Notes under the pieces: model-generated
Told to the model about the DNA's origin: nothing
Seen by the model: only the letters and a program-made list of their open reading frames with translations
The model's database searches: none
Position numbers and translations under genes: made by a program
Part shown: piece by piece, positions 6,042 to 35,643 of the stretch
Layout: each line of letters starts with the position of its first letter
How positions within the stretch are numbered: position 1 is the stretch's first letter
Source: a virus
DNA length: 39,966 nt
Virus record (IMG/VR): IMGVR_UViG_3300048839_000162
Coordinates: 1 to 39,966 of that record
Direction: 5' to 3' (one strand)

Positions 6042-6070
6042 CTGTCCTCCTGCTAGTAGCGTTACTACTA

Positions 6071-6128: not shown

Positions 6129-6177
6129 CGCCATCGTGCCTAGCAGTGGCGTTGATGGACGAAAGGGCTGGCTCTCG

Positions 6178-6828
6178 GTGGAGTTCGTCGGGCAGGTCAT
6201 CAAGCGTAAACGACTGGCGTTAAAGCTGACGCAGGAAGACCTTGAAGAGCGAACCGGGTTCACGCAGTCCTATATCAGCCAGGTCGAACGCGGGGAGACA
6301 CGCCAACCGAGCCGCGAACGTCTGCGCGCCTTCGCTGATGCGCTCAATCTCGATTACAACGAACTGCTCAGGATCGCGGACTATGCGCCGGAGTATGCCG
6401 GCGATCCACGGAAGGGAGTTGATGCCGGAGAAGAACGTACCTACCGAACGAAGGCGAAGGTTCCGGCAGATGCCGCGCGGTGGGCGGTCATGCTGGACGA
6501 GTACGAAGGGCGAGACGTGCAGGTACCAGTGAGTTGGATTGCCAGCGCGGCCTACCCACTCTTTGCCGTTGACGTGTCGGGGGATTGCCTCGAATCACTG
6601 CATATCGTGGATGGCGACATCGTGATCCTTGAGGAGTATCACGATCAGCCCATCGCAGACGGCAAAGTCGTCCTGGTTCAAGTCGATGGAGGATACACCC
6701 TCAAACGATGGTTTCAGCGTGACGGGGGTCACGCGGAACTGCGCGACGGCGACGATGCCATCGCCTACGTGTTGTCGGAGGCAGTGCCGTTTGAGGTGCA
6801 TGGGGTGTTCTACAGGCTGGTCAGGTAA
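6178..6828 (+). CDS. Phage repressor: HTH plus S24/LexA-like domain
   Basis: 216 residues from GTG 6178-6180, preceded by GAAAGGG; GTG 6136 is an alternative giving 14 more residues. Residues 5-65 are a helix-turn-helix of the HTH_3/Cro-CI type (KLTQEDLEERTGFTQSYISQ). Residues about 117-216 match the S24 peptidase-like fold of CI and LexA: VSGDCLESLHIVDGD at 133-147, then GYTLKRW with Lys176 at the general-base position. The usual GDSM nucleophile serine is Cys137, and I see no Ala-Gly cleavage site at the usual spacing, so RecA-driven self-cleavage may be lost or changed. It likely silences the divergent early promoter. Confidence 0.85.
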   Translation: MEFVGQVIKRKRLALKLTQEDLEERTGFTQSYISQVERGETRQPSRERLRAFADALNLDYNELLRIADYAPEYAGDPRKGVDAGEERTYRTKAKVPADAARWAVMLDEYEGRDVQVPVSWIASAAYPLFAVDVSGDCLESLHIVDGDIVILEEYHDQPIADGKVVLVQVDGGYTLKRWFQRDGGHAELRDGDDAIAYVLSEAVPFEVHGVFYRLVR

Positions 6829-7005: not shown

Positions 7006-8508
7006 ATGCCTGAGTCTGCGATAGCCTACGTCCGCGTATCCGATCCGAACGATGAGGGCAGCGGCCTCGCACTGCAACGCGACCGCGTACTTGCCTATGC
7101 TGCCGACCGAGGGTACTTCATCGTTGACATCATCGAGGATAAGCAGTCCGGTGTCCTCTATCGGGAACGAACTGGCTTGCAAGCGGCTATCGCGGCACTG
7201 AAAGCCAAACGAGCGACGGTCCTGCTGATCGACCGGCTTGACCGCATCAGTCGCCGTCAGGCGCATGTGTACATCATCGACGAAGCCTGTCGCGACGCCG
7301 GTGGCCGGCTCGAAGCGGTGCAGGACCAGTTCGAGGATTCTCCCGAGGGCCGTCTCCTGTTCAGCGTCAAGGCGTTCATTGCCGAGATCGACCGCGAGCG
7401 CATCCTGATGCGCACGGTCGCGGGGCGGAAAGCACGCGTTGAGAAGAAGTTGCAACTCATTCCTGGTATCCGGCCGCTATACGGCTATGTCTGGCGAGAT
7501 GGGACCAAAGGTGCGTATGACATCGACCCGATCACTGCACCGATCGTCAAGCGGATCTTCGCGGCGGCACGAGCCGGACAATCGTTCCTGTCGATCGCCG
7601 GCGACCTGACAGCCGATGGCATCCCGACGCCGACCGGGCAATCGCGCTGGACGCAATCGTCAGTTGGCTACATCCTGAAGCATCCACACTACTGCGGCGA
7701 TGCCTGGGCGTGGGCATGGCGACCGCAGGACGGCTATGGGAAAAAGAATGCGCGCTTCGATCCTGAAGGTGGATTCCTGCTACCTGATGGAACGGTCCCG
7801 GCCATCGTCACTCGGGATGAGTGGGAAGCGGCCCAGCGAGTGATTGCCTCGAACCGCAACCGCAAGGCGCGCGATGGCACCCACGCCGAGGCGGCACTGA
7901 TGCGCGGCCGGGTCGTCTGCGCCCACTGCGGTCACGGCCTCTACGTCTCGCCCCGGCGCGGCAAGCTGGTCTACCGCTGTGAGTCGCGCTATCGCTATGA
8001 GACCGACTGCACCGTTCACAGCATTGACGTGGCCGAACTCGACATGCGGGCATGGGCCTTTGCAACCGGCATCATCGACAAGCCGCAGGCGTTCATGCGT
8101 GGCCGTGAAGCCGCCTCGCGAGTGCCGGATCGCTCGCGTGAGGTCAAATCCATACAAGCCGCCATCACGCGACTGGAGCGCCAGCAATCCACGTTGACGC
8201 GTCGTATCGCCGGGGAGGAGGATGATCTGGTTGTGACACCGATGATGGCTGAACTCCGGGCCGTCTCCGGCCGGTTGCACGCGGCCCACGAGCAACTGAC
8301 AGCGTTGACCGATGCCGTTGCTTCTGGCGCGATGCAGTCTCAGGCCATCACGGATTTCGTCGCATGGTGTCAGGGTATTGCAAGGGAACTGCCGTCCATG
8401 TCGTTCGCAGGGCGGCGTTCAGTGATCGAGATTCTGGGCGTTACCGCCACCGTCGCGCGGCGCAATGTGACGCCACAAGCGACGTTCGTGGCGCGGCCGA
8501 TGGCTTGA
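7006..8508 (+). CDS. int: Large serine integrase
   Basis: 500 residues. The N-terminal resolvase domain (1-150) has the nucleophile Ser12 in YVRVS and conserved arginines in LIDRLDRISR and the later IDRERI. The recombinase domain (about 155-280; IRPLYGYVWRDG, then WTQSSVGYILKHPHYCG) follows. A four-cysteine zinc ribbon (CAHCGHGLYVS, then YRCESRYRYETDC) and a coiled-coil region (about 385-450) come after it. This is the complete architecture of integrases that recombine attP with attB without a host factor and need a directionality factor to excise. The start is ATG 7006 with GAAAGG upstream. It stands on the strand opposite to the late and early operons, in the genome centre. Confidence 0.93.
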   Translation: MPESAIAYVRVSDPNDEGSGLALQRDRVLAYAADRGYFIVDIIEDKQSGVLYRERTGLQAAIAALKAKRATVLLIDRLDRISRRQAHVYIIDEACRDAGGRLEAVQDQFEDSPEGRLLFSVKAFIAEIDRERILMRTVAGRKARVEKKLQLIPGIRPLYGYVWRDGTKGAYDIDPITAPIVKRIFAAARAGQSFLSIAGDLTADGIPTPTGQSRWTQSSVGYILKHPHYCGDAWAWAWRPQDGYGKKNARFDPEGGFLLPDGTVPAIVTRDEWEAAQRVIASNRNRKARDGTHAEAALMRGRVVCAHCGHGLYVSPRRGKLVYRCESRYRYETDCTVHSIDVAELDMRAWAFATGIIDKPQAFMRGREAASRVPDRSREVKSIQAAITRLERQQSTLTRRIAGEEDDLVVTPMMAELRAVSGRLHAAHEQLTALTDAVASGAMQSQAITDFVAWCQGIARELPSMSFAGRRSVIEILGVTATVARRNVTPQATFVARPMA

Positions 8509-12352: not shown

Positions 12353-12672
12353 GGATCGACCCACAATTCCAGCACCGTCACGGCGCTGATGTCCGGCGTG
12401 CCGTCCGTCTCGCTGGTGAACTCGATCCGCCACGGCACGAACTTATTGCCGCTGTCCGGCGTGTAGGTGAAGGTGTAGACCCCTTCGCTGGTCTTCGCCC
12501 ATTCGTCGTCGGTGCCGTAGACGTAGGACTCATCGGCCGTGCCGTCCGGTGGCGTGACGACGGCGGTCAACGTCGTCGGGTCAGCGACGTCGCCGTTGAG
12601 GTCCGTGGCCCGGACGGTGACGATCTTGCTTTGTCCAGCGTGGACATGTTTCTCGATAGTGATATGGCTCAT
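12349..12672 (-). CDS. Small beta-sandwich virion protein
   Basis: 107 residues, coupled by ATGA on both sides. The pattern GQSKIVTVRATDLNGDVADP followed by GVYTFTYTPDSGNK is that of a single Ig-like domain, often found as spacer or adaptor in phage tip complexes. It lies between the repeat protein and the glycanase, so an adaptor role is plausible. Confidence 0.65.
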   Translation of the reverse strand: MSHITIEKHVHAGQSKIVTVRATDLNGDVADPTTLTAVVTPPDGTADESYVYGTDDEWAKTSEGVYTFTYTPDSGNKFVPWRIEFTSETDGTPDISAVTVLELWVDP

Positions 12673-14297
12673 GCCACCTCCAGCGTGATCGTCGCGGCGT
12701 CCGCGACCGAGAGCGTCAGTGACGCGGCGTCACTGACGGCAAGCGAGAGCGTTGCGGCGTCGCGGACTGACAGCGACAGGCTGACGACGGCCAGCGCCGC
12801 CAGATCACGCAGCGTCGGCGCGTACAACGTCGCGGTACTCGCCAGGTGCGGAATCGTGATCGTCACGACGCCCGGCAGGATCACCGGGTCGTACAGCGTG
12901 TTGACGGCTGCCAGATGTGGGATCGCGATCGTCGCCACGCCGGTCATCGTCGGCGCGAAGAGCTGCGCCGCACTCGACAGGTGGCCGATCGTCAACGCCA
13001 CGCTGCCGGGAACGAACGACGGCGCATTGAGCGTGGCGGCACTCGCCAGATGGGGGATGACCAGCGTGTCGGCTGCGACGTCATCCAGCGATAGATCGTA
13101 GAGCACGCTAGAGGACGCCAGATGCGCGATGGAGAGCGCAACCGCCCCCGGTGTGATCGCCGGGTCATGCAACGTGCTGCTTGACGCCAGATGCGGGATC
13201 GTCAGGCTATCGGCTGTGACCGCATCCAGCGACGGCGTGAACAGTTGCGCGGCGCTGGCAAGGTGGTCGATCGTCAGCGCCACCGCGCCGGGATCGATCG
13301 TCGGGTCATGCAGCGTGGCGCTCGACGCCAGATGGCTGATCGTGAGGGCCATCGCTCCCGGCGCGATGCTCGGATCGTGCAGGGTGCTACTCGATGCCAG
13401 GTGTGCAATCGAGAGCGCCACAGCACCAGGAGTGATGGCCGGTGCTGTGAGCGTGGCGGCACTTGCCAGATGCGGGATGCTGAGCGCAACCGCGCCCGGT
13501 GTGATCGTTGGATCGTTGAGGCTGCTGCTGCTTGCCAGATGCGGAATCGTCAGGGTCGCCGTCGCGGTCAGGCTTGGCGCATTCAGGGTGCTGCTGCTGG
13601 CAAGGTGTGGAATCGTCAGGTCCACGCTGCCGGGTGAGAGCGTTGGCGCGTTCAGCGTGGCCGACGACGACAGGTGCGGGATCGTGAGGGCCACGTCGCC
13701 CGCACCCGGCGTGTAGTCGATGATCAGTTGCGGTTCAGAGGATGCCGTTGCGCTGTCCCAGGTATGCGTCTCGATAACCGGCGATGTGCCGGTCGTGGCG
13801 CTGGCGTCCTGATCGGACTGGTTGACGATGCCGAGCGCGTTGCCGCTCGTCCAGCCGCCCTGTGCCAGCACTTCGGCAATCGCAGCCGCCAGCAGCCCAC
13901 GAGCGGTCCCGCCGCCCGTTCCCGACGTTGATGGGAATGTGTAGCGCGTGCCTGACGTGCGGTTGGTGTCCTGACTCCAGACGGCGATGTTGGTGCTGAT
14001 CGGCCGTGAGCCTGGCCGCGACGCGTCTGACCAGACCGCCGTATTGGTTTCCAGAATAGCCACCAGCCTGGCCGGTGGTGCGTTCCAGACTGTCCCGGAC
14101 GCCATCAGCGACAGGTAGGCCGTGTTGATCGTGTCGGCGCTCGTCAACGTGCAGTTGGGAAAACGCCAGCCCTGACCGTGGCCGGTCCCGGCCTCGGACG
14201 GCCCGAAGCGCATCGTCCCTCGGGTGATCGTGAAGTTGCCCGAGAAGATCGCGCCATCGTCACCGGACTCAGCAACGGTCAGGGTCAGCGTCGCCAC
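12669..14297 (-). CDS. Tandem-repeat tail-tip protein (IPHLASS repeats)
   Basis: 542 residues from GTG 14295-14297. Residues 1-195 form a beta domain like the carbohydrate-binding-type (DNRLRE-like) modules, ending PQLIIDYTP. Residues about 201-500 hold 13 tandem repeats of 22-24 residues with consensus ALTIPHLASSSTLHDPTI plus a PGAV-type link; His-Leu recurs in every copy. Residues 506-542 hold a second series of 10-residue repeats (SLSLSVRDAA, TLSLAVSDAA, SLTLSVADAA). The regular repeats suggest a beta-solenoid or fibrous spacer. A fibre or tip component is inferred from late position and domain style; I know of no named family. Confidence 0.7.
   Translation of the reverse strand: MATLTLTVAESGDDGAIFSGNFTITRGTMRFGPSEAGTGHGQGWRFPNCTLTSADTINTAYLSLMASGTVWNAPPARLVAILETNTAVWSDASRPGSRPISTNIAVWSQDTNRTSGTRYTFPSTSGTGGGTARGLLAAAIAEVLAQGGWTSGNALGIVNQSDQDASATTGTSPVIETHTWDSATASSEPQLIIDYTPGAGDVALTIPHLSSSATLNAPTLSPGSVDLTIPHLASSSTLNAPSLTATATLTIPHLASSSSLNDPTITPGAVALSIPHLASAATLTAPAITPGAVALSIAHLASSSTLHDPSIAPGAMALTISHLASSATLHDPTIDPGAVALTIDHLASAAQLFTPSLDAVTADSLTIPHLASSSTLHDPAITPGAVALSIAHLASSSVLYDLSLDDVAADTLVIPHLASAATLNAPSFVPGSVALTIGHLSSAAQLFAPTMTGVATIAIPHLAAVNTLYDPVILPGVVTITIPHLASTATLYAPTLRDLAALAVVSLSLSVRDAATLSLAVSDAASLTLSVADAATITLEVA
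12798..13697 (-). repeat. 13 tandem coding repeats of about 69 bp
   Basis: The DNA encoding the IPHLASS repeats. Units share blocks such as GCCAGATGCGGGAT on the plus strand but differ elsewhere, so the array is old or under diversifying drift, not freshly duplicated. Such arrays can change copy number by recombination and alter fibre length. Confidence 0.75.
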
Positions 14298-22041: not shown

Positions 22042-23924
22042 CCGCTATACCCGTCCCGCCACTTGACCGTATCGGTCGCGGACAGGCCATCGGTGACGGT
22101 GTTGCTACCGGGGTCGAGGACGTACCACTGGTCAGGATCGGACCACGCGAACATCTGCCGGTCGTCCTCGTCGGGGCCGTAGAACGGGCCATCGACGCTG
22201 CTGGTGATCGAGCGCGCCTCGGCGTCGATCGTCAGCGTCCCATCCGGCACGCACAGATCGGTGAAGGTGATCGTCCGGCCGTTGATGGTGTAGTCGCCGT
22301 CATAGAAGTCGAAGTTCTCGGCATTGCCCACGACGACAGTTGGCGTGCTTGCCAGCGTCAGTTGCACCGGATCGGTTGACCATTCGATCGTCAGCGTCGC
22401 CGGGTCAGCCGTCGTGCCGTGATTCTCCAGTCCGACCGCAATCTCCACAGCATCGTCAATGTCGATGTCGCTCGTCACCGTCGCGTTGCTGGTGGTCGAC
22501 CAGACGGTTGTCCACGCCGAGGAGTTGGCGACACGCTTCTTGACGAAGGCGCGCGCGTTGCTGCCGTCGAGGTTGGCCGTCACTCGCCGGAGTCCGGTCA
22601 GGGCGCTACTGGTTCCCGCCTTCGCGCCGACGTGTAGCCGGATACTGTCGGCGCTGTTGTCATAGGTTCCGGCCGCACCGAGCGAGATGACCAGACTGGA
22701 TGCCGACTCGCTGGTGATCGCGTAGCTCGCGTTGGCCGTCTCGTTGTGCGAGCCGGTCAATGCCGGTCGCCACACTCCAGCGCGCAGGCCGTTACTGCTG
22801 ACGGTTGAGAAGTCATCCCATGCCCAGCGCGTGTTGCTGCTTTGCGCGGTGAATCCGGTCGTCGTCGTCGTGATCCAATGCGCCCAGCCCATGCCGCCGT
22901 CACTGAGGGTGTTCGCCAGCGGGTTGCTGATCCCTGAGCCATAGAGGATGTCCACGTCAGTTGCTAGCGAACCGTTCGATGCCGTATCCACCAACACCCA
23001 TAGCAGCGTCAGTACACCGTCATTCACGACGTAGATTCGGGCCGGAACGCCGTTGACGTAGGCCATGAAGTTACCCGGAACCAACCCCATAAACGTCGCC
23101 TCATGGCTTGACGACAGAATCCACGAGCCACCCGACCCGTTGCCATCTGGGGATCCATCGACCGGGATCGTGAACTGCGCCGCGCCCGTCACCGTCACTG
23201 TCCACGTTCCGTTGATCTCCGCGTCGTCGTGACCGGCGATGACGACCTGATTGCCGCTGGAGAGTCCGTGCGCGAACCGCGTGTTGACAACCGCTGGATT
23301 CGCGGACGTTGAGGTGTTGATCGGGTTTCCCGACTGCAACACGAACAGCACCGGATAGGCGATGACGCCACCCCCGGCCCCCGCGCCCGTGACCGTGCAG
23401 GCCCGCCGCGTGACGTGCGTCCCGGTCGTCAGTTCCACCCGTGGGTAGACCGGCGCGTTGCCGTCGTTCGTGACCGTCGCCGGACTGGCCGCGCTATCCT
23501 CAGACTGCGCCTCCCAGATGCCGAGCGGCGCGACACAGGACGCGATGTATTCGACCGACTGGATGACTCCGGCATCAGCCACCAGTTCCAGTGACTCGAT
23601 CAGCACATCCATCTGGACGGCGGTTCCATCGTGCCAGGTTGCCGCCAGCGTGCGTGTCTGCCTGCTGCCGGTAGGCGCGAACCACTGGCTCACGTTTTCA
23701 TGGAACTGCGCGTACGTCACGCCTGCCCCGGCGACGCCGCTAATGCGCAGCGGGAAGCGCCACGGCTGGCCGGTCATGCCGGTAAAGGTTGGGTGACTCG
23801 AACGCCGTTCCAGTAGCCCAAGTCCCGCCTGCCGTGGGATCGCGCGGCCGTATGGCATCCCGACGCGGTAGGCCGTCGTGCTGTTGAGCGTGTGGCCGTC
23901 AAAGCCGGTGATCGAGATCGCCAT
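22038..23924 (-). CDS. Distal tail (Dit-like) protein with large insertion
   Basis: 628 residues, more than twice a minimal Dit. The N-terminal 140 residues (MPYGRAIPRQAGLGLLERRS) and C-terminal 80 (ENFDFYDGDYTINGRTITFT, then WSDPDQWYVLDPGSNTVTDG) fit the two halves of Dit. Between them an insert of roughly 350 residues includes an E1-FCCH-like module (FAHGLSSGNQVVIAG, then INGTWTVTVTG, 218-252) and a further beta domain, likely carbohydrate-binding (evolved Dit). The start ATG overlaps the tape-measure stop (TAATG). Confidence 0.7.
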   Translation of the reverse strand: MAISITGFDGHTLNSTTAYRVGMPYGRAIPRQAGLGLLERRSSHPTFTGMTGQPWRFPLRISGVAGAGVTYAQFHENVSQWFAPTGSRQTRTLAATWHDGTAVQMDVLIESLELVADAGVIQSVEYIASCVAPLGIWEAQSEDSAASPATVTNDGNAPVYPRVELTTGTHVTRRACTVTGAGAGGGVIAYPVLFVLQSGNPINTSTSANPAVVNTRFAHGLSSGNQVVIAGHDDAEINGTWTVTVTGAAQFTIPVDGSPDGNGSGGSWILSSSHEATFMGLVPGNFMAYVNGVPARIYVVNDGVLTLLWVLVDTASNGSLATDVDILYGSGISNPLANTLSDGGMGWAHWITTTTTGFTAQSSNTRWAWDDFSTVSSNGLRAGVWRPALTGSHNETANASYAITSESASSLVISLGAAGTYDNSADSIRLHVGAKAGTSSALTGLRRVTANLDGSNARAFVKKRVANSSAWTTVWSTTSNATVTSDIDIDDAVEIAVGLENHGTTADPATLTIEWSTDPVQLTLASTPTVVVGNAENFDFYDGDYTINGRTITFTDLCVPDGTLTIDAEARSITSSVDGPFYGPDEDDRQMFAWSDPDQWYVLDPGSNTVTDGLSATDTVKWRDGYSG

Positions 23925-26900
23925 TATTGCGCCCTCCCGAGACCAGACCGAATGCCGCGCTCAACCGCGCGCTCGATGCGCGTCTCGAAGTCGCGATCGT
24001 CCCGACTCCGGTCTGCGCTGCGTGGCAGCGGTGCCGGTGTCTCCGTCGTCACAACCGGCGCCGGCACATCCGGCAAGCCCCAGCGCCAACCCGGAGACAC
24101 TCCGGCCAGATCCAACTCGCGCTGACTGATAATCCCGTCGCCGTTGCGATCGAGGCTGTCAAAGCCGGGATTGTTCATGCCGTCGGAAAAGCCGCCCGAC
24201 CGCCGCGTGCCGCTACCGCTGCCGGTGCCCCCCGGATTGGTCGTCTCGCTGATGTCTTCCAGCGCACCCTTGAGGTCGTCGCCGTAGACGCCCATCGACT
24301 TCCCGGCCTTGACGACGGTTTCAGCGGTCTCGACGGCCTTGTCGGCAAGCGAGTCCATCAGCATCTCGATGACGGCCAGGTTCTCTTCGATGGCGGTCGG
24401 ATCGGACCCCGTTGCCAGCGCCTCGGCCAGATCGACCAGCAAGGCCGTCTGCATCCGTTCGAGCTCTTCGAGGATCGCGTTGACCTCTTCGCCGGTCGCG
24501 TCGCCGTAGAGCGCCAGCGCCTCTTCGTAGGAGATGGCACCATTCGCGATCTGTCCCACCAGCGTATCGACCAGGCTGGCCCCGCCATCCTCCATCTGGG
24601 TCATCAGTTCCTGCAACTGCGCCAGCGAGGCATCGCTGATGTCGTTCCAGCCGGACTCGATCTCGGCCAGCGCACCGGCCCCGAACAGTTGGTCGTACAG
24701 TTGCTCGAACCAGACGCCGCCCGATTCGGTCAGCGCCTGCAAGGTCTCTTCGTCGATCAGCCCCCGTAGCAGCGCCTCTCGCAGCCCCTGGGTGCCTTCG
24801 TTCAGCAGCGTCTCGGCTTCGTTCAGGCTGGTGCCAAGCTCTTCCAGCACTTCGGGCGGGACGCCCAGCAGCCGCCCCATGTCGAAGGCGTCACGGGCCT
24901 CCTCGTACTGGCTGACAATGCGCTCGAAGAAGTTGCCGGTCGCGTCACCACCGGCCGCGATCCCTTCGACAGCAGCCAGCGTGGCATCGTGGATCATCTC
25001 GGCCAGATCCGCGATCCGTTCGGCCTCGGCCTCGGCCGCATCGGCTGCCGCTTCGGCAGCCTCAGCCGCCGCCTTCGCTGCGTCTTCGTTGGCCAGCCAC
25101 GCCTGCACCGCATCGGTGCCGAGCAAGGCCGTCAGCGCGTCGTATTCGCCCCGTAGCGCGGCGATCTGGGCCGTCAGGAGGTCAGCACCAGCCGTGTCGC
25201 CAAGTTCGCGTAGCGCGGCCTGTAGCGCCTCAAGGTTGGCGATCTCACCCAACAGGTCGGCCGAGTCGCCCATGATGTCCGACAGGTCGATGCCGCCGAG
25301 TTCGCGAGCCAGCGCATCACTGGCGCGTTCGGCGTAGTCCTCGGCTGCCGTGTCCAGTCCGACGAACAGGTACGACCAGTCGATCGACCCGATTCCGACA
25401 TCAATCGTCAACACCGGACGGCTGCCGGACCCGCCGCCGAATCCCGCCCCGCCGCCATCGGCCATCATCGGGAACCCGGCCTGGCGCAGCAGCTCGCGCA
25501 TCCGGTCGGGCCGGGTGAGGGGCAGCACCAGTTCCGGACCCGCTTCACCGATCATCGCGAAGGTCGGCCCGTTGACCAGCCCACCGTCAGCGAACGCCTG
25601 CCCGCCGCCTGGATCGCCCACCCCCGGCATGTACGGTGCGGCGTTGCTGCTGTTGATCTGGTTGATGAGTTCGAGAATACGTAGCAGTTCCCGCTCGGCC
25701 GCTTCCGTCGCCGCGTCGATCTGGATCAACCACGGCTTCGAGATGTACTCGATCTTGCGCGTCATGTCCTCGATGGCCGGGACCAGTTTGGTCGTGACGG
25801 TATCGGTCAGCGTGTTGATGCTGCCGATCATCGGGTCGGCATACGCCTGATCGCCCACCAGCGCCTTCGCGTCGTTCAATCGCTGGATATACGGGTCGAG
25901 GTTGCCCTCACCACGGGCGATGGCCGCGTTGAGCTCGTCCTGCGCGATCATCACCTCGGCGTTGGCCCCGGCGAACAGCGCCGCCTGCGTCGTGGCGTCT
26001 TCCTGCGCGCCCTCCAGCCGCCCGTAGAGTTCCGGGTAGCGGTCGAGCAGTTGCTGCTCTTCGTCGGTGAGCTTGACGCCCTCTTCCTGCTTCTTGAGGA
26101 CGATCTCATAGCCCTTTTCGAGCGTGCTTTGGATACCGGCGTACTCGGACGACTGCTGGTTGAACAGCTCCATCCCACGCAGGCCGTCCTGGTAGGCATC
26201 GGCCAGCAGTTGTTGCGCTTCGGCCACCTTCGCGACGTGGAACGCCATCTCAGCGGCTTTGCCGCTGCCAAGTTCGAGGGTGTGGAAGAACTCGGTGTTG
26301 CGCTCGTTGGCAAGCCCGGCCATCTCGGCTTGCCGGCCGAACGCGCCGCCGAACTTGTCGAGCGATGCGCCACCGGCCTCGGACTCGTTGCCAACCTTCG
26401 CCAGCAAGCCAGCGGCTTCGGAATACAGTTCGAGTGAGTCCTGAAACTCTTCACGAATCCGCGTGACAACCTGCTGGAAGATGTTGCCGGACCCGGTAGC
26501 ATCCCGCATCGCGTCCGCGACCGCATGGATGACCGGCACGAGTTCGGACCCGGATTCCCCGCCCCGATCAAGCCAGCCGGACAGCGTTTCCATGCCACCT
26601 GAGAAGGTGTTCAGGACGGGATTCGACGACTCAAACAGCGACTTCAACAGGTTGAACTCACCGCTGGTGCCGGGGATCGCGCCACCCAGCGTGTTGAACG
26701 CATCGGCCAATGTCGTGACGGAATCAGCCAGGATCGTCACCTGTTGCGCCCCCAGCGCGACAACCGGCGTCAGTCCGGTGCCAATGGAGGCTTTCAGGTC
26801 ATCGACGGACGCCTGCGCCGTCTTGAGGCTGTTGGCAGCCTCGTCGGCGTTGCGCGCGAAGTCACCCTGCGCGTTGGTGGTCTGTTCCAGAATCAGCGCG

Positions 26901-27625
26901 TAGCTGGCCTGCGCCTTGTCGGCGGCGGTCAGTTCCTTCGCCGTCTCGGCCAGCCCCATGTTGAGGGCTTTCTGCTGCACCATGACGGCGTTGATGTTGA
27001 CGCCCAGCGACCGCAGCGGTTCGATTTCGCCGACCAGACCGGCGCGGATTTTTTCCAGCGCCACATCCGTCCCGATGTTGTTGAACGAACCAAGATCAGC
27101 CGCTAGTTGCACGATCGAGCGCGACATGTTGGCCGCGACCGGCTGTGCCAGCCCCATCGACGTGAACAGGTTGCCGAAGGTGCCAGCCGCTTCGAGCGCC
27201 GCCGACTGGCTCAGGCCAAACGCCTCGGAGCTGTCCTCTGACCAGCCCACAATCGAATCCGAGGCATCACCGAAGACCTGTTCGACCTTGTTCATCGCCT
27301 CGGTGAAGTCGCTGGCGGCGTTGAAGCTGGACTTGCCGAAGTCGGCCATCATGCGCGGCGCGTCCGCGATCATGTTGCCGATGGCGACGCCGGCCGCTGT
27401 CTCACCAATCCGCCTGAGACTCCCGATCGTGCCGGTCGCGCTGGCGTCCATCGAACGCAGATCGGTTCCGGCCTTCTGCGCCGCTGTGCCGACCTGATTC
27501 AGTTCGTTCGTGGCAACGTCGGCAGCGGTTCCCATACCCTTGAGGTCATTGACGACCTTCTGGAACTCAGGAGTCGATAAATTGTTAGCGGTTATGACAA
27601 TCTGGACTTGGTGATTTTGGCTCAT
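23924..27625 (-). CDS. Tail tape measure protein
   Basis: 1233 residues, the longest protein in the window. It has typical N-terminal helices (NKVEQVFGDASDSIVGWSED, then SAALEAAGTFGNLFTSMGLA), long Ala/Glu-rich coiled coils (about 850-1120) and the FADGGLVNGPTFAMIGEAGP motif, which in most tape measure proteins lies near the C-terminus. It sets tail length and is threaded into the tail tube. Near the C-terminus residues 1159-1170 form a canonical EF-hand loop (DRNGDGIISQRE), unusual for this family. Start ATG 27623-27625. Confidence 0.92.
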   Translation of the reverse strand: MSQNHQVQIVITANNLSTPEFQKVVNDLKGMGTAADVATNELNQVGTAAQKAGTDLRSMDASATGTIGSLRRIGETAAGVAIGNMIADAPRMMADFGKSSFNAASDFTEAMNKVEQVFGDASDSIVGWSEDSSEAFGLSQSAALEAAGTFGNLFTSMGLAQPVAANMSRSIVQLAADLGSFNNIGTDVALEKIRAGLVGEIEPLRSLGVNINAVMVQQKALNMGLAETAKELTAADKAQASYALILEQTTNAQGDFARNADEAANSLKTAQASVDDLKASIGTGLTPVVALGAQQVTILADSVTTLADAFNTLGGAIPGTSGEFNLLKSLFESSNPVLNTFSGGMETLSGWLDRGGESGSELVPVIHAVADAMRDATGSGNIFQQVVTRIREEFQDSLELYSEAAGLLAKVGNESEAGGASLDKFGGAFGRQAEMAGLANERNTEFFHTLELGSGKAAEMAFHVAKVAEAQQLLADAYQDGLRGMELFNQQSSEYAGIQSTLEKGYEIVLKKQEEGVKLTDEEQQLLDRYPELYGRLEGAQEDATTQAALFAGANAEVMIAQDELNAAIARGEGNLDPYIQRLNDAKALVGDQAYADPMIGSINTLTDTVTTKLVPAIEDMTRKIEYISKPWLIQIDAATEAAERELLRILELINQINSSNAAPYMPGVGDPGGGQAFADGGLVNGPTFAMIGEAGPELVLPLTRPDRMRELLRQAGFPMMADGGGAGFGGGSGSRPVLTIDVGIGSIDWSYLFVGLDTAAEDYAERASDALARELGGIDLSDIMGDSADLLGEIANLEALQAALRELGDTAGADLLTAQIAALRGEYDALTALLGTDAVQAWLANEDAAKAAAEAAEAAADAAEAEAERIADLAEMIHDATLAAVEGIAAGGDATGNFFERIVSQYEEARDAFDMGRLLGVPPEVLEELGTSLNEAETLLNEGTQGLREALLRGLIDEETLQALTESGGVWFEQLYDQLFGAGALAEIESGWNDISDASLAQLQELMTQMEDGGASLVDTLVGQIANGAISYEEALALYGDATGEEVNAILEELERMQTALLVDLAEALATGSDPTAIEENLAVIEMLMDSLADKAVETAETVVKAGKSMGVYGDDLKGALEDISETTNPGGTGSGSGTRRSGGFSDGMNNPGFDSLDRNGDGIISQRELDLAGVSPGWRWGLPDVPAPVVTTETPAPLPRSADRSRDDRDFETRIERAVERGIRSGLGRAQ

Positions 27626-27693: not shown

Positions 27694-27936
27694 ATGCAGG
27701 AATGGGAATACAAGATCGTCATGCGCGAACGCGGACTGGTCCGCTCCGGTTCGAGCGGCGTCGGTGCTTACGTGGCCGGCGAGTTCCACCCGACCGGCGA
27801 AGAGATGCTGGCGCAACTGGACGCGCTCGGACGTGACGGCTGGGAACTGGTCAGCGTCACGGCGCGACAGGCCATGCACAGCAGCCCCGTCTCGAACGAG
27901 GAGGTCTGGATTTTCAAGCGTCCGCGTCGCGCGTAA
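27694..27936 (+). CDS. DUF4177-like moron on the opposite strand
   Basis: 80 residues, with GGGAG shortly before ATG 27694. The pattern MQEWEYKIVMRERG, GRDGWELVSVTARQ and EEVWIFKRPRR is the short DUF4177 layout (beta strands around a G-WELV motif). It lies between the tail chaperone and tape measure genes but on the plus strand, with its own promoter-like element. This is the hallmark of a moron: a gene expressed from the prophage independently of the lytic programme. Molecular function of the family is unknown. Confidence 0.75.
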   Translation: MQEWEYKIVMRERGLVRSGSSGVGAYVAGEFHPTGEEMLAQLDALGRDGWELVSVTARQAMHSSPVSNEEVWIFKRPRRA

Positions 27937-27940
27937 CTGC

Positions 27941-28677
27941 TCAGCCATCACCACTACCATCCGGTCGCGTCCGCGCCTTCCACGCATCCAGCGCCGCCAT
28001 CGCCTGTGCCTGCTCCTTGCGCCACTTCGTCAGGAACTGCTCGGCCCGGCTATAGATCGAACGGGTTGCCCACTGCCGTCTGATTCGTTCGCGCTGGCCG
28101 TCCGAGAGGCCGTCAATCTCGTCCAGTGTCCAGCCGTAGGTGCGCTGCATCGACTCGTCCTCAAGGTCGGTTTCCCAGCGTTCCCAGCCGGCCGGAATCA
28201 GGTCAGGCGGATCTTTCAGCCGCCCGTTGGTCAGCCAGTCGTAGAACTCGTCTCGGCTTTTGGGTTTGTCCAGATACTCCGGCGCGTGTTGATCTCGCCG
28301 ACCAGCCGCATCCCGTCACGCCCCGGCAACTCGAAGAACAGCGCCATCCCGAGCGGCAGCTTGTTGCCGTCGAAGTCGGTCAGGTTATGGTCAACCACCC
28401 GGTCAGCAACGAACGTCGCCAGTCCGGCGTTGTAGTCTTCCTGCGCCTGCTTGAACGCGGCCTCGTCAATCTCGTCGGCTTGCCGTCGCTTGACAGCCTT
28501 TGTCAACTGATCATTGAGATGGCGGATATAGGCTTGCTCGACCATCGTCGCGCCGCCCTTGACCTCGAACCAGTGCTCGCCGTCCGGCGACTCGATCCGT
28601 CTGACCGTCTCACTGGACGGCGGCGGCGCGTCGGCTGCCCGTCCGGGTAGCTCGAACGTCCACGTAAAGGCATCCAT
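27941..28677 (-). CDS. Tail assembly chaperone GT (by -1 frameshift)
   Basis: The second open frame (27941 upward) has no good start of its own: its first ATG is at 28150, yet the frame stays open to the slippery site at 28258-28264. A -1 shift after Lys140 of the short chaperone would continue with SRDEFYDWLTNGRLKDPPDL and add 105 residues, giving 245 in total. Lambda-type phages make G and GT from such a shift to chaperone tape measure assembly. The tail part (WTLDEIDGLSDGQRERIRRQ) is helical and basic, as is usual. Confidence 0.75.
28231..28677 (-). CDS. Tail assembly chaperone G (short form)
   Basis: 148 residues from ATG 28675-28677. Position between tail tube and tape measure genes, size, and the overlap with a second frame define it as the G-like chaperone. 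An N-terminal beta part (FTWTFELPGR) is followed by a helical middle (DQLTKAVKRRQADEIDEAAF) and LPLGMALFFELPGRDG near the end. The last eight residues after the slip site are specific to the non-shifted form. Confidence 0.75.
   Translation of the reverse strand: MDAFTWTFELPGRAADAPPPSSETVRRIESPDGEHWFEVKGGATMVEQAYIRHLNDQLTKAVKRRQADEIDEAAFKQAQEDYNAGLATFVADRVVDHNLTDFDGNKLPLGMALFFELPGRDGMRLVGEINTRRSIWTNPKAETSSTTG
28258..28264 (-). promoter_or_regulatory. Programmed -1 frameshift site CCCAAAA
   Basis: On the minus strand C-CCA-AAA (28264 to 28258) sits in the zero frame as X-XXY-YYZ, the canonical slippery heptamer. The shifted reading (CCC-AAA) enters the open downstream frame exactly as needed for a GT fusion; the other alternative frame meets a stop (TGA) soon after the site. 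Confidence 0.8.
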
Positions 28678-28742: not shown

Positions 28743-29147
28743 TTACGGACGCCACTCCGGCTGGCTAGCAGCCACGAGCGTGTACTGGTTGTCGATGATG
28801 GCGTTGAGTCCACCGGCACTGATCGAGGAGAGCGTCATGTAGCCGGTACCGAACACGTAGTCGGTCGCCTCGTTGCGGTCTGGGTACCAGTACCACTTGC
28901 CGACCGTCCGGCTGAGGGCGGCTTGGCGCAGCGAGACCTCGTTGTGGTCGTACCACTTGGTCAGCGTCAGCGTGAAGTCGGTCAGTCCCGGCTTCTTGGT
29001 CTTGAACGTGTCCCCCCAGGCCGAATCCTCGGCGAAGTCGGTCGGCAGGCTCATCGAGACGCCGGTGCCCTCCGCGATCGGCGAGGCTGTGCCGGTGCCC
29101 CAGTAGAGGATCTGATTGACGGTATGAGTCGTTGTTCCGAGTGCCAC
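28743..29147 (-). CDS. Major tail (tube) protein
   Basis: 134 residues from GTG 29145-29147, with GGAGG upstream. Located just before the chaperone genes, the normal place of the tail tube protein. The beta-rich sequence (TGVSMSLPTDFAEDSAWGDT, then FTLTLTKWYDHNEVSLRQAA) suits the tube fold. Short compared with lambda V but in the range of other siphophage tube proteins. Confidence 0.7.
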   Translation of the reverse strand: MALGTTTHTVNQILYWGTGTASPIAEGTGVSMSLPTDFAEDSAWGDTFKTKKPGLTDFTLTLTKWYDHNEVSLRQAALSRTVGKWYWYPDRNEATDYVFGTGYMTLSSISAGGLNAIIDNQYTLVAASQPEWRP

Positions 29148-29156
29148 GGAAACCTC

Positions 29157-30284
29157 CTACATATCGGCTAGACAGGTGTCCAGCACAACGCGCATACGTG
29201 CCGCGACGGTGTGCGACTGGACGCGCTCGTGCGCCTCCGCTGCACACCGCTCCCGTTCCTCCGGGTGGGCCAGGTAGTATCGGATGACCCGCTCAAGGTC
29301 GGCGGGATCACGGTGGGAATAGGTGGGAATCGAGTTCCCGAAGATGTCGCGCAACTCGTCGCGCGAGTCATCGCAAATCTGGAAGCACTTGCCCGCCGCC
29401 AGTTCGTAGACACGCGGGTTCAAGCTGTCTGCCTCGTCCGGCGCGATCTCGGCGTCGAAGCCGTACCACTTGACCAGCCGGTGATGGTTGATGTTGATCT
29501 TCGCACCCGCGTAGTAGAGCTGCGCCTCCTCGTTCGGCACGTTATCCGGCAGCGTATGCAGCGTGTCCTCAAGGTTGCGTGTTGACCAGACACCCCGCGA
29601 CACGAAGTCGATACCCGTCCAGTCCACGCCCGAGAGCAACGCCTGCCGCTCCGGGAACGGTGAACCGATGAAGCAGACATCGCTCCGGTACTCGCCCGGC
29701 ACGTCCGTCCTCGGGTAGTGGCGCAGCGGGTCAAAGCCGTGCGGCAGGTAGTGGACCGCGCCCGGATACGGGTGGCCGTCCTCGATGCGCTTGGCGACGA
29801 TCCGGTCAACCATCAGCCGCTCGTTGGTGAAGGCGTACTTGTAGAACGACTGGACGGCGTACTCCCCCTCATCCTGGTAGGGCGATTCCGTCAGCCAGAC
29901 CGCCGTCTGCGTGTACTGTCCGAGCATGGCAGCCACGGCCGGCGGGAAGATCGTGCCGCTGATGAACAGGATCAGATCGGGCCGGAACGCCATCGCCATC
30001 GCGACCGCCCGGTGCGAGGCGTAGCTGGTCAGGTTGCCGAAGCGTGCCGCCTCGTCGCCCTCCAGTTCGCCCTCGATCCGGCCGGCCACCATCAGGTCGA
30101 AGTGATAGTCCAGCCCGAGCACGTCAACCGTTCCGAGCGAGCGCAGACCGGCCAGCGCGCCGTCGTACACGTCTTTGGTCGAGTAGTGGGGGCCAGGTGC
30201 CACCACCATCACCCGTGGCGTATCCGTCACCGGGACCGGCTCGGCGCGATGGTCGATCAGCATGGGGAGCGTCATGCCGGTCAT
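29157..30284 (-). CDS. CgeB-type glycosyltransferase
   Basis: 375 residues with a two-Rossmann (GT-B) layout. The N-terminal half (RVMVVAPGPHYSTKDVYDGA, then HRAVAMAMAFRPDLILFISG) and the C-terminal CgeB-like domain are both clear: CFIGSPFPERQALL, then NPRVYELAAGKCFQICDDSR, then YYLAHPEERERCAAEAHERV. It should transfer a sugar from a nucleotide donor. ATGA coupling to the methyltransferase gene and placement just before the tail tube gene suggest glycosylation of a virion protein, known in some actinobacteriophages. Modification of a host glycan or another acceptor cannot be excluded. Confidence 0.82.
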   Translation of the reverse strand: MTGMTLPMLIDHRAEPVPVTDTPRVMVVAPGPHYSTKDVYDGALAGLRSLGTVDVLGLDYHFDLMVAGRIEGELEGDEAARFGNLTSYASHRAVAMAMAFRPDLILFISGTIFPPAVAAMLGQYTQTAVWLTESPYQDEGEYAVQSFYKYAFTNERLMVDRIVAKRIEDGHPYPGAVHYLPHGFDPLRHYPRTDVPGEYRSDVCFIGSPFPERQALLSGVDWTGIDFVSRGVWSTRNLEDTLHTLPDNVPNEEAQLYYAGAKININHHRLVKWYGFDAEIAPDEADSLNPRVYELAAGKCFQICDDSRDELRDIFGNSIPTYSHRDPADLERVIRYYLAHPEERERCAAEAHERVQSHTVAARMRVVLDTCLADM

Positions 30285-30811
30285 GCGTCACCGTCCGGTT
30301 CCGGCTTGACGGCCCACGCATACACGTCGTCGTGGTAGGGCCGGTTGTTGCGCTCCACATGCACGCGGCTGAACCCGGCATCGCGTAGCCAGCGGCGCAG
30401 GTCGGATTCGCTGATGTTCGCGTAGTGCTCGCGCTCACCGCGCGCCCCGCCGTCCGAACCATGTTCGGGCCGCTCGGGACCAGCCGCCGTGATGATGACC
30501 GCGCCGCCTGGCTTCAGGATGCGGAAGGCGTTGCGAACGATCTCCTGCGGCTCCGGCGCGTGTTCCAGCGTCTCGGTCGAGACCACGATGTCGTAGGTGT
30601 TGGCGCGCCCGAACTCGGCACCATCGGCTACCTCGTCAACGCCGTCGCCCTTGCGGACATCCACGCCGGTGTAGTCCTTGCAGCCGTCGAACAGGTCGCG
30701 GATCGTGCCGTTGACGTTGTAGCTGCCGATCTCGCAGACCCGCGCATCGGTCGCGTCGACCTTGAGCGCATCAATGGCGCGAATGACGGCGGCGCGTGCA
30801 GCGTCATGCAT
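30281..30811 (-). CDS. SAM-dependent methyltransferase of small-molecule/sugar type
   Basis: 176 residues, class I methyltransferase. Motif I is VCEIGSYNVNG (25-35), the acidic ribose-binding residue is Asp51 (TGVDVRKG), and STETLEHAPEPQEIVRN plus LKPGGAVIIT follow, as in Methyltransf_11 enzymes. No DPPY-type DNA motif. Directly coupled to the glycosyltransferase, so it may O-methylate the transferred sugar. Confidence 0.82.
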   Translation of the reverse strand: MHDAARAAVIRAIDALKVDATDARVCEIGSYNVNGTIRDLFDGCKDYTGVDVRKGDGVDEVADGAEFGRANTYDIVVSTETLEHAPEPQEIVRNAFRILKPGGAVIITAAGPERPEHGSDGGARGEREHYANISESDLRRWLRDAGFSRVHVERNNRPYHDDVYAWAVKPEPDGDA

Positions 30812-30820
30812 GAATCAGCC

Positions 30821-31309
30821 TCACAGAACTACTTGGTCCGGTGCGGACACAACGATCTCGCCGTAGTGCGAGAGGACGCCGCCCTGACCGGGGTAGTGGA
30901 ACAGTCGATGCTCAACAGTCGTCACCTGCGCGTTGATGCGCGCCAAGCGCGGTGTCAGGTCAGCCATCATCGTCACGACGGCTTGCAGCGCATCCTCAAC
31001 CAGCGTCGCGAACGCCCGGCCGGATGCGTCGCCGTCATTGAGGGTGCGGAAGACCCGCACGCGGAAGGTCGTTGCCGCGTCATAGCGCCATGTCGTGGCC
31101 GTCGAGAGCGACGACAAGGTGTAGCCGAGACCGATCAGCGCGACATCCGCGAACTGGATCATCTCGACGCTACCGATTTGGTTCTTGAACAGTTCGTCAG
31201 CCTGCTCTACCTTCGTGACGTACCGTTCGTAGTCGTAGACATCCCCAATGTTGGGAACATCACCGAGCGCCGTCACAAGCGCCGTACGCAGCGCAGCAAC
31301 ACCGGCCAT
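30821..31309 (-). CDS. Tail terminator / minor tail protein candidate
   Basis: 162 residues from ATG 31307-31309 (TGATG coupling); upstream read-through to 31480 is discarded. The order connector, gp10-like protein, then this gene is where siphophages carry the tail terminator. Pattern: MAGVAALRTALVTALGDVPN, then TTFRVRVFRTLNDGDASGRA, an alpha/beta protein of the right size. Confidence 0.6.
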   Translation of the reverse strand: MAGVAALRTALVTALGDVPNIGDVYDYERYVTKVEQADELFKNQIGSVEMIQFADVALIGLGYTLSSLSTATTWRYDAATTFRVRVFRTLNDGDASGRAFATLVEDALQAVVTMMADLTPRLARINAQVTTVEHRLFHYPGQGGVLSHYGEIVVSAPDQVVL

Positions 31310-31782
31310 CAGACGATCCCGTCCAGGCTGCGGTTGAACGCGACGATGCGCGCGCGAACCTTCGGTAGCGCGTCCTGATAGCCCCGGTTGAACATGCCGT
31401 GTGCGCGCGTGCCACGGACGGCGATGGCCTTCTGAATCGCATAGGCTGCCTTCGGATCGCCAAGCTTGCGCGTTGACCACAGAATCAGCGGCCCGATCGG
31501 TGCCCAGTGTGGCCGCGCGCCATGCTCGACAGATGCGACCTTGACCGGCTCATCCTGCGAAAACACTCGCCCAACCATCGTCACGCCAGCACCAGTGATG
31601 TCATGCGTGATGGACCCGCGCAGATGGCCGGTTGCGCCAACCGGTGTCCGTGCCACGACCGCGCCCTCGAAGTCCACCGCCGCGAACGTCAGCAGTTGCC
31701 GCAGTTCGGCGTCAATGCGCTCAGGAGCCAATGCAAAGGCCCGGAGTGAGTTGGCAGCACTGATATGCACTTTGAGGCTCAT
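31309..31782 (-). CDS. HK97 gp10-like head-tail joining protein
   Basis: 157 residues from ATG 31780-31782 (ATGA). ARTPVGATGHLRGSITHDI and ASVEHGARPHWAP are the hallmark motifs of the HK97 gp10 family, which helps joining of head and tail. The extra upstream residues in the open frame are shadow sequence. Confidence 0.8.
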   Translation of the reverse strand: MSLKVHISAANSLRAFALAPERIDAELRQLLTFAAVDFEGAVVARTPVGATGHLRGSITHDITGAGVTMVGRVFSQDEPVKVASVEHGARPHWAPIGPLILWSTRKLGDPKAAYAIQKAIAVRGTRAHGMFNRGYQDALPKVRARIVAFNRSLDGIV

Positions 31783-32480
31783 ATGTGCCGTCCGCGATGC
31801 GTCAGCGCGCCGATACCGCCAAAGCGCGGCAGATCCCAATCGAGCACCATCGTCGTCGGCGCTTCACCGCTGGCGACGCCAACCTGCTCCTTGTAGCGAT
31901 TCAGCAGCGCCCCACCGATCCGGCGCGCCTCGTCCGGCTTCGAGCCACGGTCGACGCTATCGGCGTTCAGCGTCGACTCCTGCTCGTGCAGGAAGCGCGA
32001 CGCGAAGCGGAACATGCAGTGCGCCGCCACGAGATTGACGAACGCCCAGGTATGCCGCGCCGGAATCGTCGTGGCGTCCGCGCCGTCGAGGCCGTCCAGC
32101 GTGTGTGGGGTGGTGTAGAGCACCCGCACCGTCTCGCCGCTCCCCGGCGTGTCGTGCAGCAGCCGCAGGCTGGTCGTCGTCTCAGTCCGGTAGATCGTCC
32201 AGTGGTTGCCGTCGATGTAGAGCGGGGTGCGTTCGCCGGCCGGATACTCGACCGTGATGATGCGCGCGCCGTCCACGTACTCGGTCAGTGCGAGGTCGTA
32301 GGTCGTGCCGTCGCCGGCCACGTCTTCGATCACCTCCCGCGGTGCGTCGCTGCTGTAACGTTCGATGGCCTCACGAATCGCCATCTCGATCTCGCCGTCT
32401 TCGGCAGCACTCAGGAAGCCAGGGGTGTCCTGAATGACTGAGGCGACTTTCGTCTTCACGCTGGCAAGGTCTTCCGCCAT
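31779..32480 (-). CDS. Head-tail connector (adaptor) protein
   Basis: 233 residues, start ATG 32478-32480 with GGAAGGGGG upstream. The helical N-terminus (VASVIQDTPGFLSAAEDGEI, then IREAIERYSSDAPREVI) and central beta part fit adaptor proteins that extend the portal. Position after capsid and decoration genes supports the call. Confidence 0.65.
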   Translation of the reverse strand: MAEDLASVKTKVASVIQDTPGFLSAAEDGEIEMAIREAIERYSSDAPREVIEDVAGDGTTYDLALTEYVDGARIITVEYPAGERTPLYIDGNHWTIYRTETTTSLRLLHDTPGSGETVRVLYTTPHTLDGLDGADATTIPARHTWAFVNLVAAHCMFRFASRFLHEQESTLNADSVDRGSKPDEARRIGGALLNRYKEQVGVASGEAPTTMVLDWDLPRFGGIGALTHRGRHI

Positions 32481-33216: not shown

Positions 33217-35643
33217 TTAGTTGGCAACAACCATCCGGTAGGTGCCGCGATGGTCAATGATCATCACGTACCAGATGTGCCGGATCTTCCACGTCACCTT
33301 GTCGGCGGTGAACATGCTGCCGACGTTGGCCGCGTCCTGCACGAACAACTCCGGCTCTTCGCGGCCCTGATAGAAGCCGACTTCGAGGACCGGATTGAGC
33401 GACGGGTCAGCGAAGGCGTACCAGTCGGTCGCATCCGTCCAGGAGTCAACGACGATCACCTCATAGCGGCCCTGGAACATGTTCGGAACGGTCGCGCCGC
33501 CCGGAGTCATGCCGGTCACGGCCTGGTAGGCCACCACACGCAACTCGTTCGGAATCGCGAGAATGCGCGGCATGTTGGCCTCACCCAGCGGCAGGCCGGT
33601 CTGGTTGCCGTAGTCGAGCTGGTCACGCATGGCCGTTTCGACCGCCAGCAGGCCCGCGCCGGCGTTGTCGAAGGCGGTCGTGCCGGTGTTGGCGTGGTTG
33701 TTGTGGTAGAGCGCCGTCGTGTCGTAGGAGGCCGTCGCGTTGTCCTTGATCGTGACGTTCCAGACCTCGTTGTAGAGCGTGTCGACCGCTGCGTAGCCCA
33801 GCTTGACCGGGATACGCCGGACGAGGCCCATGTCGTCGTTGGCGATCGCCTCCAGCGTCAGATCCTCCAGACCGCCCCGCTTGTCGAGGCTGTCAGTGGC
33901 CTTCTCGTCACCAGGCGTGTCGAGCGGCTGGTAGGGCGCGCCCTCACCGACGACCGGCAGGAAGTCGTAGCCACCCCAGCGGGTGCGCTCGACGGTGCGG
34001 AAGTCGACCACCGGCGTGGTCGTGACGATCTGCCGCCACGTCTGCCGGTCAGGCCGCGCGTACTCCTGCAACATGCGCCGTCGAATCGAGTCGCCGAGCA
34101 CGTCGCCAAAGGTCGTCGTGGTCACGGACTCGGCCAGCAGCCGGTCGTCGCCGGTAAAGGTGCGCGCTTCCTGCAACACCCGCTGCGCCAGAATGCCGTC
34201 GATGTAGCTGTCGCGATAGTCGCCGGAGACCGCCTGATAGGCCTCCTTGAGCGTCAGGAACGGCTTCACCCCGTCGATGGTGCGTCCCCAGACGAGGCCG
34301 TCCATCGCCTTCTGATGCTTCTCGCGCTGATCCTCAGTCACGACGACCGCGCCCAGCCCGTGCGGCTTGACGGCGGCGGCTTCGGCAAACAGTTCCTTGT
34401 CGCGCCCGATACGCGCCTCAAGGTCGGCACTCTCGAAGATGCGCTCCTTGAAGTCGGCGCGAATCGCGTCCTGGAACTTCTGCGGCAGCTTCGACTCGGC
34501 CAGCAGTTCGGCCAGCGTCGCCTTGCACTCGGCCAGTTGGAAGCGGCGCTCGGCAGCGGCGGCAGCTTCCTCAATGCGACGAGTCGCCTCATCCAGCGGA
34601 GCGGTGTTCGGCGTGGCTGGTTCCGCTGGCGTCTCGACCGGCTTGGTCGGAATCGCCTCGGTCAGCAGTGCCGAGAACTCGTCGGCTGGTAGCGACTCTT
34701 GCAGGAACTTCCATTCGTCCTGCGTGAGCCTGTTGCCCGCACGATAGCGAGCGAGCAGTTCTGCAACGTTCACGATTGCCTCCTGTAATGGGTCGGGGAC
34801 GAATGAATCCTGCGATTCCGAAAGAGGATTGAGTAGCGCCCCGCCAGCGGCAGGCGTGACCACTACATCAACTGAGGACACCTGCGTGATCGCCTTGACG
34901 CGATAGCCGCGCGGCTTGATCGCCTCAACAATCGCCCCGCCAGCCGGAACGACGTGTGAGAAGCCAAAGGGGGATCGTCCGGTGCGCTGGGCTACGTCAT
35001 AGCCGTGCATGAATGCTTCGCGCATCTCCGGCTTGCCGCGATTGATCTCCAGCGTCGCCTCGATGCCGCGCGGGTTGGGTGCAGGGTCGGTGACGTATCC
35101 GGCGATGCTGTCAAAGCCGCGCTCGTTCGGGTTGTGATCGACCCCACGCCCGTAGAAGGCAGGGACGCCAGCATAGGCGTTGACGGCTTCATGCAGGACG
35201 TTCAATGGGTATTCGTTCCCATTGGCTGACCGGCCAGCCGCGATCACCTGTATCCGCCACTTCCACCCTTCGGTGTCGAGCGATTCGAGCAGCGCGCCGC
35301 CCTGCAAGCGGTCGCGCACGGCCTCGGTGACTGGCACGTACTTGGTCTCGACACGCACCGGCTGTTCATCGCCCAGCGTCACGTTGCCGTCGCCGTCGAT
35401 GGTGTAGCCGCGCCGGTAGAGCGCCTGCCCGGTCGGTGCCTCGATCTCGTAAATCACATAGTCATCGAAGACTTCACGCGGCCAGCAGTAGTAGTTGTCA
35501 CCCTTGCCAGCGCACAGCGCGGCCCTGAGCGCATCGCGAATCTGGTCGTGTGAGAGGGTGGATTCGGAGAGGTGGAACGCGCACACAGGCGGCGCTTGCA
35601 CCGATTCGAGGATGGGTAGAGGATTGCGGAAGAGTTCCGACAC
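33217..35643 (-). CDS. Capsid polyprotein: protease, scaffold and major capsid fused
   Basis: 808 residues from GTG 35641-35643. Residues 30-110 are a small N-terminal domain (GKGDNYYCWPREVFDDYVIY). Residues about 128-270 look like a prohead protease (AAGRSANGNEYP; candidate His170 in VDHNP; candidate Ser256/257 in QVSSVDVVVTPAAGG). Residues about 290-435 are helical and Glu/Ala-rich, scaffold-like. Residues about 460-808 are an HK97-fold-type major capsid protein (SYDTTALYHNNHANTGT, then EVGFYQGREEPELFVQDA, then TWKIRHIWYVMIIDHRG). Usually these are two or three genes; a fusion implies self-cleavage during maturation. Cleavage sites cannot be read by eye. Confidence 0.82.
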   Translation of the reverse strand: MSELFRNPLPILESVQAPPVCAFHLSESTLSHDQIRDALRAALCAGKGDNYYCWPREVFDDYVIYEIEAPTGQALYRRGYTIDGDGNVTLGDEQPVRVETKYVPVTEAVRDRLQGGALLESLDTEGWKWRIQVIAAGRSANGNEYPLNVLHEAVNAYAGVPAFYGRGVDHNPNERGFDSIAGYVTDPAPNPRGIEATLEINRGKPEMREAFMHGYDVAQRTGRSPFGFSHVVPAGGAIVEAIKPRGYRVKAITQVSSVDVVVTPAAGGALLNPLSESQDSFVPDPLQEAIVNVAELLARYRAGNRLTQDEWKFLQESLPADEFSALLTEAIPTKPVETPAEPATPNTAPLDEATRRIEEAAAAAERRFQLAECKATLAELLAESKLPQKFQDAIRADFKERIFESADLEARIGRDKELFAEAAAVKPHGLGAVVVTEDQREKHQKAMDGLVWGRTIDGVKPFLTLKEAYQAVSGDYRDSYIDGILAQRVLQEARTFTGDDRLLAESVTTTTFGDVLGDSIRRRMLQEYARPDRQTWRQIVTTTPVVDFRTVERTRWGGYDFLPVVGEGAPYQPLDTPGDEKATDSLDKRGGLEDLTLEAIANDDMGLVRRIPVKLGYAAVDTLYNEVWNVTIKDNATASYDTTALYHNNHANTGTTAFDNAGAGLLAVETAMRDQLDYGNQTGLPLGEANMPRILAIPNELRVVAYQAVTGMTPGGATVPNMFQGRYEVIVVDSWTDATDWYAFADPSLNPVLEVGFYQGREEPELFVQDAANVGSMFTADKVTWKIRHIWYVMIIDHRGTYRMVVAN

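Follow-up and report, generated by a model that had tools for sequence, protein, structure and literature searches.

Why would a phage carry two sugar-type enzymes inside its late structural operon, directly ahead of the gene for its tail tube? We addressed this question in a viral genome of 39,966 nt, which is an entire IMG/VR record (IMGVR_UViG_3300048839_000162) and is referred to here as the window. A methyltransferase (MT) and a glycosyltransferase (GT) had been described there as two open reading frames joined by an ATGA overlap, and both were found with this junction on the minus strand (Table 1). With the ATGA common to both genes, translation begins with MT, and the start codon of GT lies over the MT stop codon; the order of transcription is MT, GT and then, directly after, the tail tube gene. 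Judging from sequence comparisons and predicted structures, the pair is probably a virion-protein glycosylation cassette, in which GT would modify the adjacent tail tube and MT would methylate the sugar.

Table 1. The MT-GT pair and neighboring late genes in the window
Feature	Coordinates	Strand	Basis and remarks
SAM-dependent methyltransferase (MT) of 176 aa, leading the pair	30281..30811	-	ORF; PF13489; phrog_32762
Glycosyltransferase (GT), GT-B fold, 375 aa	29157..30284	-	PF13524; AlphaFold model; invariant residues
ATGA stop/start overlap of MT and GT	30281..30284	-	Sequence
Tail tube (major tail) protein of 134 aa, starting with GTG; proposed acceptor	28743..29147	-	Fold; PHROG matches of homologues
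Probable tail terminator (gpU-like)	30821..31309	-	Position; 29% identity to a Mae-JY22 gene in the same position
HK97 gp10-like neck/tail completion protein	31309..31839	-	phrog_5, 3.6e-7; true start probably inside the ORF
Tail assembly chaperone	28231..28677	-	Position; probable -1 frameshift product to 27941
Protease-fused major capsid protein	33217..35643	-	PF25209, 4e-38; phrog_29592, 8e-129; no GT adjoining
Tape measure protein	23924..27625	-	phrog_1535, 1e-27

The genes around the pair, including a portal, a MuF-like head protein, the protease-fused capsid and the tape measure, form a siphovirus-like late operon. The preliminary description placed the two enzymes between the tail-terminator and tail-tube genes. 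The tube side of this placement is borne out by fold and by PHROG matches, while the terminator is assigned by position: no PHROG or Pfam model matched the product of 30821-31309 above cut-off, and isolates have a gene here, or close by, whose annotation reads "minor tail protein U" or "tail tube terminator". Downstream of the tube, the chaperone gene contains an in-phase slippery CCCAAAA at 28264-28258, near the gene end, has an open -1 frame as far as 27941 and likely yields a G/GT-type frameshift product. The tail operon also holds a small DUF4177 protein on the opposite strand (27694-27936, +; PF13783, 2e-6), and an ORF of the tail region (12669-14297, -) is made of repeats, with LTIPHLASSSTL-like units. 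Elsewhere in the window, a CI/LexA-like repressor (5860-6828, +) and a serine integrase (7006-8508, +) suggest a temperate phage.

Comparison with the near-twin contig L002 shows purifying selection on both enzymes: dN is about 0.016 and dS 0.175 for GT, and dN is 0.049 and dS 0.260 for MT. MT, GT, tube and chaperone are 93-100% identical between the two genomes, and the tail terminator and the neck protein share 32% and 46% identity, respectively. A mosaic boundary lies just upstream of MT (window 28743-31309 compared with L002:6468-9022).

We then examined what GT is. It matches PF13524 (Glyco_trans_1_2; 8e-20, 71.7 bits against a curated cut-off of 25), with DUF3880 below threshold, and all 74 aligned members of its family match PF13524 at E ≤ 0.001. 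The enzyme had been called CgeB-type. This label rests on the broad PF13524, since NCBIfam gave no GT match above its cut-offs, and no CgeB-named model was matched in NCBIfam or Pfam. The AlphaFold model (pLDDT 92.4) predicts a two-domain GT-B fold by structure comparison; its nearest folds are PimA (Z 24.7 over 306 residues) and BshA (Z 24.3), along with sucrose-phosphate-synthase-like enzymes. T4 alpha-glucosyltransferase (AGT) also matches the model (Z 22.3), the GT-B fold being common to small-molecule, lipid and DNA glucosyltransferases, and the GT profile had no match among the sequences of solved structures. Across the 74 sequences, E133, P135, Y179, R213, N251, R269, P290, R291, E294, R308 and E310 are invariant, and our reading of this alignment places S287 where classical GT4 enzymes have the initial Glu of EX7E.

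MT belongs to Methyltransf_23 (PF13489; 7e-15, 55.5 bits against a cut-off of 27), that is, to the class I SAM-dependent methyltransferases, and matches phrog_32762 (3e-26); G29, D59, E83, H84, H117 and Y130 are invariant in the MT alignment. Together, the two enzymes suggest a plausible sequence of adding a sugar and then methylating it. GT would move a sugar from a nucleotide-sugar donor onto the product of the tail tube gene that follows it directly, presumably by retaining transfer as in GT4 enzymes, and MT would then O-methylate the tube-borne sugar or, less likely, the tube itself.

We further investigated how GT is placed in related phages, a comparison that the preliminary description had proposed. 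For the relatives of GT, the best 80 of 299 viral stretches were kept. Among 143 distinct GT genes, a tube homologue starts less than 300 nt after the GT end in 128 (less than 100 nt in 120) and 600-920 nt after it in five more, so that 133 of the 143 have a tube within 1 kb downstream. Eight of the remaining GTs are capsid-side copies, and the last two are L093 and L187; most GTs away from a tube are thus linked to the capsid, the other main virion protein. L187 is a partial view of the first GT copy in the L033 contig. L093:4462-5625 is the sole GT with no recognized tube or capsid neighbor, the next open frame there being of about 500 aa. The neighbor itself is well identified as a tail tube: the window tube model (pLDDT 81) is predicted to resemble monocin MttP (TM 0.82) and lambda gpV (TM 0.79), and 47 of 63 tube homologues match major tail protein PHROGs. 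One relative carries two tube genes in tandem (L009:4346-5425 and L009:5535-5918). The first is longer by a C-terminal extension of about 230 aa, lectin-like on visual inspection, and could be a decorated minor tube subunit.

The same association was seen from the tube side. A profile built from GT-adjacent tubes was searched and the closest 80 tube-derived contigs were kept; GT lies upstream of the tube in all 67 distinct viral contigs among them, and in all three further contigs obtained from an alignment of window-type tubes. The GT-side and tube-side searches overlap in part, as about 15 of the 80 contigs had already been found via GT. More distant tubes without GT occur in five isolates (CRP-406, CRP-811, DSL-LC06, phi3LM21 and S-H1) and in 33 viral contigs that extend 1.5 kb or more upstream of the tube. 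In the five isolates, the interval from the terminator region to the tube has no annotated enzyme gene, and no GT or MT lies upstream of the tube in the 33 contigs. Since such GT-free tubes exist, the cassette is an addition to the tail module, not a tail component, and it is stable within the clade of GT-paired tubes. The absence of GT loss among the 67 close-tube contigs raises the possibility that the modification serves tail building or stability and is not an optional decoration. In a broader and more tentative reading, which we hold to be possible, the GT family would consist of dedicated enzyme-substrate gene pairs, a tube copy and, after one duplication, a capsid copy, with the modification possibly needed to build or stabilize the tail.

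The capsid-side copies speak most directly to the nature of the acceptor. Six phages carry two GTs (L003-L006, L033 and L191). In these the first GT comes after a 317-aa major head protein (phrog_1005, 7e-55), at a gap of 3-22 nt in five phages and 823 nt in L006, and the second GT precedes the tube. Two other contigs, L026 and L027, have a capsid-side GT only, 1,020 nt and 36 nt after the capsid gene, respectively; both end or diverge before a tube, and no tube was found in them. The eight capsid-side GTs group together in a single clade (support 99/96) among the tube-side GTs, in a tree rooted at its midpoint only. One duplication followed by a lasting stay beside the other main virion protein means that gene position likely follows substrate. 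This clade offers the strongest indirect support for a virion-protein acceptor. That the sugar goes to the neighboring virion protein, and that MT then acts on this sugar, are our inferences. Tube and head proteins had both been put forward as acceptors. The conserved adjacency, together with the same habit in the capsid-side clade, favors the tube, and the head protein comes into question only for phages with two GT copies.

We also compared 126 GT-paired with 31 GT-free tubes for candidate acceptor residues (window numbering). Position 15 is Tyr in 115 of the 126 paired tubes, the other 11 having no Tyr15, and Lys in all 31 GT-free tubes; position 86 is Tyr in 106 of the paired tubes as against Glu in 26 of the 31. 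The aromatic set of the paired clade comprises Y15, Y86, Y99 and W/Y103, where GT-free tubes have K, E, S/T and I/L. Tyr88 is invariant in paired tubes and common in GT-free tubes too, and no site was both invariant in and exclusive to paired tubes in this comparison. Because clade and GT status are confounded, these aromatic residues are a lead, not a site assignment.

MT is less constant than GT. A homologue is present in 55 of 129 GT-tube loci, lying within 100 nt upstream of GT in 40; it is missing from the other 74, more than half, so that methylation is either optional or carried out by other genes. Members of the MT family also keep company with other GTs: in Pontimonas phage phiPsal1 and Synechococcus phage S-CBS4 their neighbors are GT4 and GT2 genes, and in Streptomyces phage Zuko the gene is flanked on either side by an annotated glycosyltransferase. 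In L196 a single ORF spans MT and GT; this could be a genuine fusion or the result of an indel in the assembly. Given this company of other GT families and the single ORF with GT, the glycan is the most likely substrate of MT. Other genes occur near GT as well: GT2-type genes occupy the same slot in about 31 of 124 relatives' loci, and a radical SAM/SPASM protein is encoded upstream of GT in nine relatives (L108:2803-3918 and eight other loci), where it might add a further change to the sugar or the tube.

The conserved gene order could have other causes. GT adjacency can persist through common descent and operon constraint, the lineages being related, and GT might act on a different virion protein, such as the capsid, the tail tip or a fibre, with its place next to the tube inherited as part of a late-operon block. 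Gene order in late operons is generally conserved and capsid-side paralogues do exist. Block inheritance is, however, at odds with the break in identity to L002, where the terminator and neck genes have diverged and the stretch from MT to the chaperone has not, and with the fact that GT keeps to the tube across different capsid types. The capsid-side copies, moreover, are one separate clade and not the same gene moved repeatedly, and we consider this explanation unlikely. The same capsid-side duplicate fits poorly with a role at the host surface, in which the enzymes would alter host glycans during infection or lysogeny and thereby mask receptors or cause seroconversion. That idea draws on the apparently temperate nature of the phage and on known serotype-altering phage GTs (cited in PMC12619734), but the genes sit in the late structural operon, away from the repressor and integrase, which makes it quite improbable.

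Least probable of all is a role of GT in DNA modification, with glucose added to modified bases of the phage genome. Although T4 AGT does this with the same fold, many GTs that do not act on DNA match the model equally well or better, no gene resembling a hydroxymethylase or thymidylate synthase was noticed when reading the window ORFs (by eye, with no profile scan), and GT is in fixed linkage to the tube. For the MT half of the proposal, a separate alternative is that MT is independent cargo whose target, a protein or a small molecule, has no relation to what GT makes. Its patchy occurrence, including two loci where it lies downstream of the tube, gives this some weight, and the ATGA overlap with GT, the apparent fused ORF and the recurrence of the family next to other GT families in unrelated phages go against it; we find it doubtful, though less so than the alternatives for GT. 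A glycosylation cassette acting on the tube accordingly remains our preferred reading of the pair.

We next asked in which phages and hosts this GT occurs. The window GT had no match among 50,697 isolate phage records, and the GT of L069, a central family member, gave three partial weak matches only (22-35% identity over part of the query). Among 84,980 bacterial and archaeal genomes, a scan with the VDWTGI motif found no relative; a second motif set found one contig of a Chloroflexi bin (L193) and a distant Brocadia protein. L193 has the order of the window (MT, GT, tube, chaperone and the start of the tape measure), its MT, GT and tube being 45-48% identical to those of the window. A set of 400 Chloroflexota genomes added one further phage-like contig, L196. 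The near relatives in cellular genome sets are thus two short contigs only, and these two metagenome bins hint at Chloroflexota as the setting. The actinobacteriophage frame of the preliminary description finds no footing here, as no isolate phage record carries the window GT and its near relatives in cellular sets are confined to Chloroflexota bins. The link to immune recognition drawn in that description likewise gains no support from these results, which have no bearing on virion stability either. Weak cellular GT relatives include proteins of Priestia and Peribacillus plasmids (25-27% identity) and profile matches in Chloroflexota genomes; no tube lies beside these weaker Chloroflexota matches.

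How does this cassette compare with known systems? Virion glycosylation is described for the mycobacteriophages Che8, Corndog and Myrna (Freeman et al., 2023, as cited in PMC12363180 and PMC12619734), and the two citing papers report that phage-encoded GTs glycosylate the mycobacteriophage capsid and tail tube. Che8 gp108 combines GT2 with a TylF/Methyltransf_24 domain and so likewise joins a GT to a methyltransferase. The enzymes themselves differ: Che8 gp108-110 are a GT2 with a TylF-like MT, a GT2-like and a GT25-like protein, whereas the window GT is a PF13524 GT-B enzyme, and BLASTP found no similarity between gp108 and the window GT, whose Pfam families are distinct. Their settings also diverge, since gp108-110 are encoded amid small genes at the right genome end, while the window GT is fixed beside the tube gene. 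The cassettes of phiPsal1 and S-CBS4 have an MT of the same family (39% and 32% identity, respectively) beside GTs near head genes, but these GTs are of GT4/GT2 type, not PF13524, and do not precede a tube. Cellular PF13524 enzymes of the CgeB/DUF3880 type share the C-terminal domain family and the NPR..E signature, from which the phage subfamily is set apart by its own signatures, VDWTGI and TESPY, and by its genomic habit. PimA, BshA and MshA share the GT fold over residues 20-375 (Z 23-25); they are only 5-14% identical to GT and their acceptors are small molecules or lipids.

No paper in the literature covered brings CgeB, glycosyltransferase and phage together, and the papers retrieved contain no description of this phage GT family, of a fixed tube pairing or of a capsid/tube paralogue split. 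In that literature, phage virion glycosylation has been shown in only a few mycobacteriophages, where different enzymes carry it out. In the present case, the GT family is widespread and virus-borne, and its likely substrate is legible from the genome because GT is paired with the tube gene and its duplicate with the capsid gene. The pairing amounts to two small genes, is directly testable and provides a natural system for the role of tail tube sugars. Altogether, the principle of virion glycosylation is known; the enzyme family, its fixed pairing with the tube and the split into capsid and tube paralogues appear to be new.
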